Positions 52,822 through 56,381 of a stretch of DNA of 64,000 nucleotides are shown here, one piece after another (the stretch's first letter is position 1; each line of letters starts with the position of its first letter). The position numbers were made by a program, and so were the translations under genes. The notes beneath the pieces were generated by a model that saw nothing but the letters and a program-made list of their open reading frames with translations, had not been told where the DNA came from and searched no databases. The stretch spans positions 310,001 through 374,000 of the forward strand of contig JAFWEJ010000008.1 in assembly GCA_017512985.1 (NCBI GenBank), written 5' to 3'. The DNA is from Clostridia bacterium. Its GTDB lineage: Bacteria; Bacillota; Clostridia; Christensenellales; Aristaeellaceae.

Positions 52822-53289
52822 ATGCCGCATCAACAGGGAATCAAAACCGTCGCGCAGAACCGCAAAGCATATCACGATTATTTTGTCGAGGAAAAGTATG
52901 AATGCGGCATCGCCCTTTTCGGAACAGAGGTCAAAAGCATCCGACAGGGGAAAGTGAACCTGAAGGAAAGCTGGGCACAGATCCGGAAAGGGGAGGTCTG
53001 GGTCGAAGGAATGCACATCAGCCCCTATGAGCAGGGAAACATTTACAACCGTGATCCGCTCAGGGCAAAGAAACTCCTGCTTCACAGAAGCGAAATCCGC
53101 AAGCTGGACGGGCTGGTCATGCGGCAGGGATTCACGCTGATTCCGCTGGAAATGTATCTGAAAGACGGAAGGGTAAAGGTTCAGCTCGGGCTATGTAAAG
53201 GCAAGCAGCTTCACGACAAGCGGGACAGCATGGCTAAGAAGGATTCGGAGCGCGAGATCCAGCGCGCTCTGAGGCAAAGGCAGAAATAA
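52822..53289 (+). CDS. smpB: SsrA-binding protein SmpB
   Basis: Binds tmRNA and delivers it to stalled ribosomes. The 155-aa protein has [48 protein letters not shown], and the C-terminal [20 protein letters not shown] that inserts into the mRNA channel. RBS GGGAGGACTGCCTT. It is directly followed by its partner RNA gene ssrA 26 nt downstream, on the same strand, as in many Firmicutes. Confidence 0.97.
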
Positions 53290-53315: not shown

Positions 53316-53656
53316 GGGGATGATCCGGTTTCGACGGGGACATCAGAGGAAGGATAAGCGAGCCGCAGCCCCTGTACTGCGTATCAACGGGGAAAAACAA
53401 TAACTGACAATAGCAATTACGCTTTCGCGGCTTAATGCCGCGCGTCGGCCCTGACCGCCTGCAGATCAGGCAACCGGCGTCATTAATGCAGGGAACGAGT
53501 TTCGCCTAAGCTTTGCAGCGGGATCCGTAATTATGAAGCTACTTCATCTTCTGTTTTTCCGCGGACAGTCCATGAAGGAATTTTAATCACGGAATGCGCT
53601 CGGAGAAAGTCCTTCTGAAGGGTTTTCGGACAGGGGTTCGACTCCCCTCATCTCCA
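53316..53656 (+). ncRNA. ssrA: Transfer-messenger RNA (tmRNA)
   Basis: Rescues ribosomes from broken mRNAs and tags the peptide for proteolysis. The 5' end GGGGATGATCCGGTTTCGAC pairs through GGGGATG with CATCTCC at the 3' end, giving the tRNA-like acceptor; the T-arm is GGGGTTCGACTCCCC. The tag reading frame runs from GGA 53391 to TAA 53433-53435 and encodes GKTITDNSNYAFAA; the GKT opening and AA end match the Bacillus tag layout. CCA is not encoded. No clear separate promoter, so it may be read from smpB. Confidence 0.95.
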
Positions 53657-53661
53657 CAAGA

Positions 53662-53726: not shown

Positions 53727-53731
53727 CTGTG

Positions 53732-53813
53732 TGCGGTCGACGGGACTTGAACCCGTACCCGTTGCCGGACACGCCCCTCAAACGTGCGCGTATGCCGATT
53801 CCGCCACGACCGC
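53732..53813 (-). tRNA. tRNA-Leu (anticodon GAG)
   Basis: Class II cloverleaf: acceptor GCGGTCG / CGACCGC, anticodon loop TTGAGGG, short variable stem, T-arm GGGTTCAAGTCCC. 82 nt, CCA not encoded. Reads CUC/CUU. Independent unit with a consensus promoter and its own terminator. Confidence 0.94.
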
Positions 53814-53900: not shown

Positions 53901-53930
53901 AAGCATAACAAATGAAAGGAGCCCGTACAG

Positions 53931-56381
53931 ATGCGCCCGAATGCAAGGCTGATCCCCGCGATTCTGGTTTTTGTGCTGCTTGCCCTCATCAGTATCGCTT
54001 TTACCGGATCCGGAGAAGAAACTTATGCAGTCAGGCGGATCGGAAACATTCATCCGTACGCGGACAATTCCTTTCAGGTCACCGCGCCGGAAAGCGGCAT
54101 GCTCGAAATCAGGATACATGACAATATTTGCGTTTACCGTGTACTTCGACAGCAGGTGGAAGCGGGGGAAACCGTTATTCACTGGGACGGCTGCGGATAC
54201 AACCGTGAAAAGCTGTATGAAAAAACATATACGGTCACGGCCGAACTGACAGGCGGATCAGGACAGACCTTCACGGTTTCCTACGATTCTCCGGTGGAAT
54301 ATCCCGCGCAATGCCTTCAGTACGCGCTTCCTTCCTCCGAAAACCTGTACCTTGACGACGCCGATTCCTGGTTTCTGGAATTCAGGACCGTAAAAAAAGG
54401 AACCGTCGTGATCACTGTCCGGTCGAACGCCGATCCGGATGATGTATATTCCTATTCGGTCGCTGCGGCGGGCGGAAAAATCAGCAGAAAGAACTTTACT
54501 GAGCTTGCCGGCAAAAAGAAAATTCCGGCGGCGGGCGAATATACGCTGTGCATATCGGAAAGCTCCATACCGGAAGAAGTATATGAATATCCGCTGCATA
54601 TCACGGAATCCGCGCCTGAACGCGAACCGGTCACGGTGACCGGGGAGATTCTTCCCGAGCGGGGTATGTCCGACAGCGAGATCTGGGAACTGATGATGAA
54701 ACCGTCGGTTGTGATCGATATTGATTCTTTCAGGCATCAGGAGGTCCATGCGTCGCCGGATCCCGAAAGCCCTTCGTTGGGTACGCTCCACGGACAGAGC
54801 CAGGGTGTAAAGGTGATCCGGATCGAGAATGAATGGGCGATGATCGGGGCATGGAACCATGAAGAAGCCGCATATGTGGAAGGATGGGTACCGCTTTCAA
54901 AGCTGAAAACCGAAGCGCCCCGGGGTGAGTACGGGCTTCTGATCGACAAGCAGAAACAGACGCTGACCGTATACCGGAACGGGGAAGCGATTGATACGCT
55001 GCTTGTATCCACCGGCAGGGCGGAAAAGGGCAGCCTTTATCAGGAGACGTCGGCAGGATGTTTCCTGACCGGATATCACCGGGTCAATTTCTCGATGAAC
55101 GGAAAAAAATACGATTACGTCATCCAGTACGACGGCGGAAACCTGCTGCACCAGACGCCGTACGACTGGGGCCAGCAAAAGAAGGATTTCACCCTCGGCA
55201 GGGGATATCTCGGAGCGAAGGCTTCCCACGCGTGCATACGCATCCAGCCTGAACCGGGGCAGGGCGGACTGAACGCGTACTGGCTGTTTACGCATATCCC
55301 GTACCATACGCGCGTCATGATCCTGGACGATCCGTGGGAACGGGAATCCGCAGCGGAGAAACTGAAAAGGGGAAAGAACGACGACGTCGACGTTTCTGCG
55401 CTCCGCGGGACCGATTCCTTCGGCAGCGGATCCGGCGGCACCGTGGAGATCACATTCGCAGGTTCCTTTATTCCCGGAGGAGACAGGGCTTTCAACCAGC
55501 GGAAGGAAAGCTTTGCTTCCTTCTGCAGCCAGCAGGGATATGATTCCGTCATCGGAAGCCTGGAGGATATTTTCCGGAGCGACGACCTGACCTGCGTCAG
55601 CCTCGGATGCGTGATCCAGAAGTCTCCGGACGTTATTCCGGAACAGAAAGGGACGTTGTTCGCGCCTGCGGGAGCTGAAAAGATCTTTGATAACGCTTCC
55701 GTCGAACTGGTGCAGATGACGGACGAAAGGCTTGCTCTTTCAGGCGGCGGTTTCGAAGCGGATACAGCCGACCTGATCCGGCCCGGGGCGGAAGTCCTGG
55801 AACGGAACGGAACCGCAGCCGTAAGGCTGAAAGGCCACCTGTTCGGTTTTGCAGGATGCGCCGAAAGCGATTACCTGAAGGAACCGGGGATCATCGATTC
55901 CCTGATCGGAGAGCTTCGGGAAGCCGGATGCGAAAAGATCATCATGCTGTTCAGCTGGTCCGAATCACGGGAGCAGCAGCATACGATTGTGCATGAAGCC
56001 ATGGCGCACAGAAGCATACGCGCCGGTGCGGACCTTGTCGTCGGGAACATCCGCGGCGCGGTACGCGGAATTGACTTCATGGAAGGCGTTCCGGTTGTCT
56101 ACAGCACCGGCGACCTGCTGAACGGAAGCACATCCGCCAGGCCGAAATCCCAGCAGGGCATCCTGGTCCGGGCCGCTTTCTGTTTTAATGAGAAAGAAGA
56201 GCTTTCCGTGACCGTTATCCCGATCCTGCCATACGGAAGCGCTGATTCGAACCGGAACGAATACAGCCCCGCGTCGGAGATGAATCCGGAAGAGCGCAGA
56301 AAGACATTCAGGAACGTCTGGCAGGATTCCTCCGAAGCAGCCCTGAAGAAAATTCAGTTCTATATGGATGATCAGTTGTAG
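53931..56381 (+). CDS. L,D-transpeptidase fused to a CapA-like domain lacking metal-site residues
   Basis: An 816-aa exported protein. Signal anchor RLIPAILVFVLLALISIAF; a FlgD-type Ig-like region about 38-105 (VTAPESGMLEIRIHD...HWDGCG); an SH3-like segment about 275-330 (VIRIENEWAMIG...GWVPLSKLK); a YkuD L,D-transpeptidase domain about 333-460 with ASHACIRI (Cys 435; the usual SHG is SHA) and His 407 upstream. Residues about 503-816 follow the CapA fold (ITFAGSFIPGGD; GADLVVGNIRGAVRGIDFME; VVYSTGDLL), but the four metal motifs of active CapA (GD, NLE, HWG, GHHPH) are GS, SLG, SWS and GNIRG. Likely wall-modifying enzyme plus a ligand-binding pseudoenzyme. Tail overlaps the rRNA methyltransferase gene by 10 nt. 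Confidence 0.8.
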   Translation: MRPNARLIPAILVFVLLALISIAFTGSGEETYAVRRIGNIHPYADNSFQVTAPESGMLEIRIHDNICVYRVLRQQVEAGETVIHWDGCGYNREKLYEKTYTVTAELTGGSGQTFTVSYDSPVEYPAQCLQYALPSSENLYLDDADSWFLEFRTVKKGTVVITVRSNADPDDVYSYSVAAAGGKISRKNFTELAGKKKIPAAGEYTLCISESSIPEEVYEYPLHITESAPEREPVTVTGEILPERGMSDSEIWELMMKPSVVIDIDSFRHQEVHASPDPESPSLGTLHGQSQGVKVIRIENEWAMIGAWNHEEAAYVEGWVPLSKLKTEAPRGEYGLLIDKQKQTLTVYRNGEAIDTLLVSTGRAEKGSLYQETSAGCFLTGYHRVNFSMNGKKYDYVIQYDGGNLLHQTPYDWGQQKKDFTLGRGYLGAKASHACIRIQPEPGQGGLNAYWLFTHIPYHTRVMILDDPWERESAAEKLKRGKNDDVDVSALRGTDSFGSGSGGTVEITFAGSFIPGGDRAFNQRKESFASFCSQQGYDSVIGSLEDIFRSDDLTCVSLGCVIQKSPDVIPEQKGTLFAPAGAEKIFDNASVELVQMTDERLALSGGGFEADTADLIRPGAEVLERNGTAAVRLKGHLFGFAGCAESDYLKEPGIIDSLIGELREAGCEKIIMLFSWSESREQQHTIVHEAMAHRSIRAGADLVVGNIRGAVRGIDFMEGVPVVYSTGDLLNGSTSARPKSQQGILVRAAFCFNEKEELSVTVIPILPYGSADSNRNEYSPASEMNPEERRKTFRNVWQDSSEAALKKIQFYMDDQL

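Follow-up and report, generated by a model that had tools for sequence, protein, structure and literature searches.

An L,D-transpeptidase of gut Clostridia fused to a CapA/MslH-like domain that has lost its catalytic residues

What use is a former enzyme domain to the cell-wall enzyme that carries it, once its whole catalytic centre has been replaced? The question is raised by a gene in a 64,000-nucleotide stretch of contig JAFWEJ010000008.1 (the window, meaning the whole stretch) from a Clostridia bacterium, which is a gut bacterium. The gene is one open reading frame with an ATG start and no internal stop. Its product, the window protein (L008), joins a YkuD L,D-transpeptidase to a C-terminal CapA/MslH-like domain (Table 1). 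As a whole, the protein is probably best explained as an active transpeptidase with a catalytically dead domain that has a non-catalytic role.

The earlier note on this DNA had read four degenerate motifs in the CapA-like part, and all four are present in the window: GD is replaced by GS (residue 512), NLE by SLG (557-559), HWG by SWS (675-677), and GHHPH by GNIRG (705-709). A fifth lost motif, overlooked in that note, is NNHxxD, which reads DERxxL at residues 598-603. At the aligned sites the metal ligands are lost, as had been proposed: all eight catalytic or metal positions (D512, E559, N599, H600, D603, H675, H707, and H709 in window numbering) differ from the family residue. The domain thus retains none of the eight catalytic or metal residues of a CapA/MslH-type metalloenzyme. 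In MslH, D11, E44, N87, H88, D91, H259, and H295 are metal ligands or catalytic residues, according to the accessible part of PMC10406935. The correspondence follows a profile alignment and the numbering in that part of the paper, with H259 inferred and H707 without an MslH assignment. The comparison covered 61 protein rows; 25 duplicate loci and the fragment L094 had been dropped before alignment. The CapA part is absent from 13 rows and present in 48, where all eight sites are kept in 36 rows, seven in L029, four in L022, three in L020, and none in nine. When the lost and partial groups are set aside, 37 rows are left, and in these only H709 varies, being found in 36; the other seven positions are invariant.

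Both a profile and the predicted fold place the domain in the CapA/PGA_cap family. The Pfam family PGA_cap matches residues 654-732 of the window protein with 43.8 bits (cut-off 27). The predicted model of the C-terminal part has the expected CapA-type fold with high confidence; together with the aligned positions, it agrees with the earlier proposal of a retained fold with lost catalytic residues. A Foldseek search with the full model returned MslH first (8.3e-12). Complement C3 and other beta-rich proteins were also returned, with poor template-modelling scores, and we attribute the C3-type results to chance similarity with the beta-rich front part. The relation to MslH needed structure and the profile of the intact relatives to show: phmmer with the window protein alone gave only weak matches in the PDB (E 0.58 and 0.82), and the best match of the lost-clade profile was a viral capsid protein (E 0.15), with MslH at 0.16. 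MslH is described in the accessible part of PMC10406935 as a lasso-peptide C-terminal Trp epimerase (PDB 8gq9, 8itg, 8ith, 8gqb). In contrast to MslH, the window domain is shorter, is fused to a transpeptidase, and has no lasso-peptide gene among its ten neighbours. The same part of the paper describes YmdB (4b2o) as a calcineurin-fold metal-dependent phosphodiesterase with a full ligand set, whereas the window domain is without the ligands.

The catalytic residues were lost in one clade. In a tree calculated from residues 40-468, with the CapA part excluded, the nine lost rows group together with bootstrap 100 and Shimodaira-Hasegawa-like approximate likelihood ratio 100. The clade comprises the full-length L008-L014 and the internally deleted L025 and L027. 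The latter two lack about 100 residues of the first half of the CapA part and keep the GADLVxG segment and an open frame. L020 and L022, fusions with partly lost sites and possible intermediates, cluster with L034, one of the CapA-less rows. In approximately unbiased (AU) tests of groups named after the first tree was known, a clade of the nine lost rows with L020 and L022 was rejected (p-AU 0.003), whereas a clade that also included L034 was not rejected (p-AU 0.27). A second, independent loss in L020 and L022 is therefore unproved. A single clade of the CapA-less L034, L035, L073, L076, and L092 was rejected (p-AU 0.011), and it is unlikely that the whole domain was lost in L034 and in the other four in one event.

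The CapA part of the lost clade is relaxed, yet far from neutral. Ratios of nonsynonymous to synonymous substitutions (dN/dS) were determined for residues 504-810 from Nei-Gojobori counts with 500 codon resamples. Only four pairs were usable; L025-L027 and many others were not, because their synonymous sites are saturated. Three pairs among L011-L013, which share branches, gave 0.105 (0.068-0.151), 0.186 (0.121-0.276), and 0.137 (0.089-0.191), and the window protein against L009 gave 0.270 (0.151-0.391) at a dS of 1.5. The YkuD domain has values of 0.013-0.041 in the same pairs. The range of 0.10-0.27 indicates a pseudoenzyme under selection and not a relic. Residues 504-760 correspond to 257-259 amino acids in an open frame in all seven full-length members, and the best conserved stretches are 504-523, 624-663, and 684-743, with block identities of 0.56-0.70 and a domain mean of 0.51. 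Homology to an active family, loss of the catalytic residues, and purifying selection, the marks of a pseudoenzyme, were all found, the activity of the intact relatives being itself read from their residues.

The catalytic motif of YkuD enzymes consists of a cysteine in SH.C, an upstream histidine, and an arginine. The window protein has C435, H407, H433, and R437, and YkuD matches residues 334-464 with 37.6 bits (cut-off 23.4). H407, S432, C435, and R437 are invariant in all 61 rows, and H433 is present in 55; in L037, L071, and L085-L088 the histidine of SHGC is replaced (SQGC, SDGC, SEGC). Judging from these residues, the YkuD domain is expected to be active. The earlier note had called the SHA-C of the window a varied motif. 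It is present, but it is the norm of the genus, found in 27 of 31 genus-clade rows; the remaining four (L035, L073, L076, and L092) have SHG-C, and all four are without the CapA part. Over the 61 rows, position 434 is alanine in 28 and glycine in 33. SHAC does not mark the loss of catalytic residues, since intact members of the genus have it too. The window species' own genome contains seven YkuD matches: only the fusion has SHAC, four others have SHGC, and in the remaining two no motif was found by the script, possibly in a wrong frame. L,D-transpeptidases of the LdtMt2 type have the architecture Ig-Ig-YkuD, where Ig stands for immunoglobulin. The window protein differs from them in having SHAC for SHGC and extra SH3-like and C-terminal CapA-like parts, and its whole-length superposition on LdtMt2 is poor, with a root-mean-square deviation of 19-20 Å. 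PDB entry 4xxt is titled as a fusion of predicted Zn-dependent amidase/peptidase (cell wall hydrolase/DD-carboxypeptidase). Judged by this title and the weak match at residues 339-441 (E 0.58), it similarly combines a transpeptidase-like region with a second wall-enzyme domain; by title, the partner domain is other than CapA-like.

The protein may function as follows. The secreted or membrane-anchored transpeptidase would cross-link or anchor peptide stems via Cys435. A CapA/MslH-like metal-dependent enzyme was fused to it before the genus arose, and in the clade of the window species the whole catalytic centre was lost, with the predicted fold kept by purifying selection. Most likely, the domain would hold a wall peptide, a polymer, or a partner protein within its former cleft or close to it and thereby guide the transpeptidase to its proper site of action.

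Several observations weigh against this proposal. Measured against residues 40-468, the CapA part has a median dN of 2.07 among the 21 lost-lost pairs and of 0.80 among the 91 intact-intact pairs, so that its rate compared with the remainder of the protein is about 2.6 times higher in the lost clade. The conservation of the eight old catalytic positions over the seven full-length lost rows is 0.458, compared with a domain average of 0.507. As a set they are no better conserved than the domain and give no sign of a repurposed pocket. About 100 residues of the domain are missing in two members of the clade, and in other lineages the whole domain is gone. The model of the window protein was built from an alignment that included intact relatives. 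Finally, in MslH a grip domain and the second subunit of the dimer take part in forming the cleft, according to the accessible part of PMC10406935, and the shorter window domain may lack both.

It is possible, with a lower probability, that the domain acts chiefly as a spacer, structural or partner-binding, that provides stability, dimer formation, or the right depth of the transpeptidase in the wall and has no ligand in the cleft. The kept fold, the conserved stretches, and the unremarkable set of old catalytic positions suit a spacer. However, positions 705-709 of the old site lie within a conserved stretch, and other lineages have discarded the domain entirely. No observation separates a spacer from ligand binding, and we rank it second to the holding of a ligand, which is our first guess. 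A more speculative extension concerns the intact fusions, which could be two-step wall enzymes: the MslH-like domain would alter the last residue of a wall peptide, for example by epimerising or trimming it, before the transpeptidase acts, and in the window clade the step would have become dispensable and the domain kept as a peptide holder. We consider this extension rather unlikely; if true, it would link MslH-type chemistry to peptidoglycan.

That the domain is a decaying relic heading for deletion is somewhat less probable again. The faster evolution of the CapA part, the internal deletion in L025 and L027, and the whole loss in L034 and, at the same locus, in L035, L073, L076, and L092 would be expected of a relic, but the dN/dS values, the high-confidence predicted fold, and the near-constant length of an open frame in 7/7 full-length members speak against it. 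A new catalytic activity based on other residues is very improbable. Several changed positions are common among the seven full-length lost proteins (G559, S675, N706, and G709 in six of seven each, and aspartate or glutamate at 598 and at 599 in all seven), but they were picked after viewing, and the former catalytic set is no better conserved than random domain positions. On the same grounds, the idea that a new conserved pocket has replaced the metal site was rejected: it is unsupported for the set, and its shared single positions were chosen after viewing. An artefact, in which a frameshift or assembly error joined two genes, can be dismissed, since the fusion occurs in many species of at least nine genera in separate assemblies, and relatives carry the same domain order in one frame, within the genus at the same locus with the same next gene (31/31 genus-clade loci).

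The fusion is ancestral and older than the genus. It is no one-off: the architecture occurs in at least nine genera of the family, mostly with a CapA part that is catalytically intact by its residues. With profile A1, at least 49 of the family's 308 genomes gave a single near-full-length match, a lower bound counted among the matches listed and without those in two pieces. Some match to the whole protein was found in 63 of 100 related genomes. A scan of genome contigs gave 57 loci; many carry the names of ruminant-gut samples, and two are named Candidatus Limiplasma. Across both domains, no fusion match outside the family was present among the genomes listed (E 1e-20; 101 from the order, including at least six of the family). 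A genome from a different family of the order has a CapA part in a 609-residue frame (G371:C51:29930-30889), which is longer than the usual stand-alone CapA. Neither the fusion nor a pseudoenzyme transpeptidase is named in the titles and abstract starts of open-licence PubMed Central papers among the matches listed, in agreement with the earlier view that the combination is undescribed. The parts are known, and their architecture is a new variant, which in one clade joins an enzyme to a pseudoenzyme domain.

The name CapA in these bacteria need not mean capsule synthesis. The window domain matches PGA_cap (PF09587), the family of CapA/PgsA, above the cut-off, with its catalytic motifs lost. 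PGA_cap is present in 45/45 genus genomes, with one to eight matches in each. The poly-gamma-glutamate synthase subunit CapC (PF14102) was found in none of the 45, many of them incomplete (the window species' own is 89.7% complete), with a positive Bacillus subtilis control; CapB was not searched. A role in poly-gamma-glutamate synthesis is therefore unlikely. The own genome has four stand-alone PGA_cap copies with catalytic motifs. Compensation by extra stand-alone CapA genes was rejected: an informal count, including the matching fusion, gave 5-7 PGA_cap matches for the species of the seven full-length lost proteins, compared with 2-8 for other genus genomes at least 80% complete, without a trend. 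A second CapA-like protein of about 450 residues with an N-terminal hydrophobic stretch is encoded in the own genome (L005) and by its orthologs L103-L108. GD, NNH, and HWG are changed in 7/7 of this group, the glutamate of NLE is kept in 7/7, and the last histidine of HPH is kept in 5/7. Judged by sequence, these proteins form a degenerate stand-alone CapA family of their own within the genus.

Of most interest is a natural series of states at one orthologous locus, where the catalytic sites of the fused domain are intact, partly lost, or all lost in a conserved domain, or where the domain has an internal deletion or is absent. With this series, the use of the CapA-like domain to the L,D-transpeptidase can be tested by comparing close relatives. 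The fusion also provides a lead that CapA/MslH-type enzymes may act on cell-wall peptides.

Table 1. Features of the transpeptidase gene and its surroundings, in window positions
Feature	Position	Strand	Basis or remark
Whole gene, L,D-transpeptidase with C-terminal CapA/MslH-like domain without catalytic residues, 816 residues	53931..56381	+	
N-terminal hydrophobic stretch, residues 1-33	53931..54029	+	sequence only
Ig-like part (FlgD_ig-like), residues 56-109	54096..54257	+	below cut-off in window; E <= 0.001 in 18/42 members
SH3-like part, about residues 260-328	54708..54914	+	SH3_3 in 10/42 members; beta-rich model; boundaries by eye
YkuD L,D-transpeptidase domain, residues 334-464; H407, S432-H433-A434-C435, R437	54930..55322	+	
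Variable linker, residues 469-503	55335..55439	+	relatives poorly identical there
CapA/MslH-like calcineurin-fold domain without catalytic residues, residues 504-814	55440..56372	+	Pfam, structure, alignment
S512, at Asp of GD (MslH D11)	55464..55466	+	alignment; MslH numbering from accessible part of PMC10406935
G559, at Glu of NLE (MslH E44)	55605..55607	+	alignment and profile alignment
E599, R600, L603, at N-H-xx-D (MslH N87, H88, D91)	55725..55739	+	alignment and profile alignment
S675, at His of HWG (MslH H259, correspondence inferred)	55953..55955	+	alignment
I707-R708-G709, at HPH (709 = MslH H295)	56049..56057	+	alignment and profile alignment
SmpB	52822-53289		5' of gene
tmRNA (transfer-messenger RNA)	53316-53657		5' of gene
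tRNA-Leu	53731-53813	minus	5' of gene

The order of Ig-like, SH3-like, YkuD, and CapA-like parts given in the earlier note is real. Over 42 family members including the window protein, Pfam finds YkuD in 42, PGA_cap in 41, FlgD_ig in 18, and SH3_3 in 10. The Ig-like and SH3-like labels are therefore based on relatives and the beta-rich model; in the window protein itself, FlgD_ig reaches 17.5 bits at residues 56-109, below the cut-off of 27. The first 33 residues are likely a signal peptide or membrane anchor. A purine-rich sequence, GAAAGGAG, was noted by eye at 53914-53921, nine bases 5' of the ATG.

On the other side, the last ten bases of the gene are shared with an RlmL-type methyltransferase gene on the minus strand, beyond which lie genes for a cyclic-di-AMP receptor, the delta' subunit of DNA polymerase III, and a PSP1 protein. 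The scan of ten neighbouring genes found no lasso-peptide gene and no synthase gene. The RlmL-type gene is next in all 31 genus-clade loci (L008, L010, L011, L013, L019, L038-L058, L066, L068, L073, L076, and L092), and further neighbours are mostly alike as far as the contigs reach. These loci are therefore taken as orthologs at one locus. The gene order also holds where the CapA part is missing (L058, L066, L073, L076, and L092). In these five stand-alone forms, the frame stops within about 75 bases of the methyltransferase gene.
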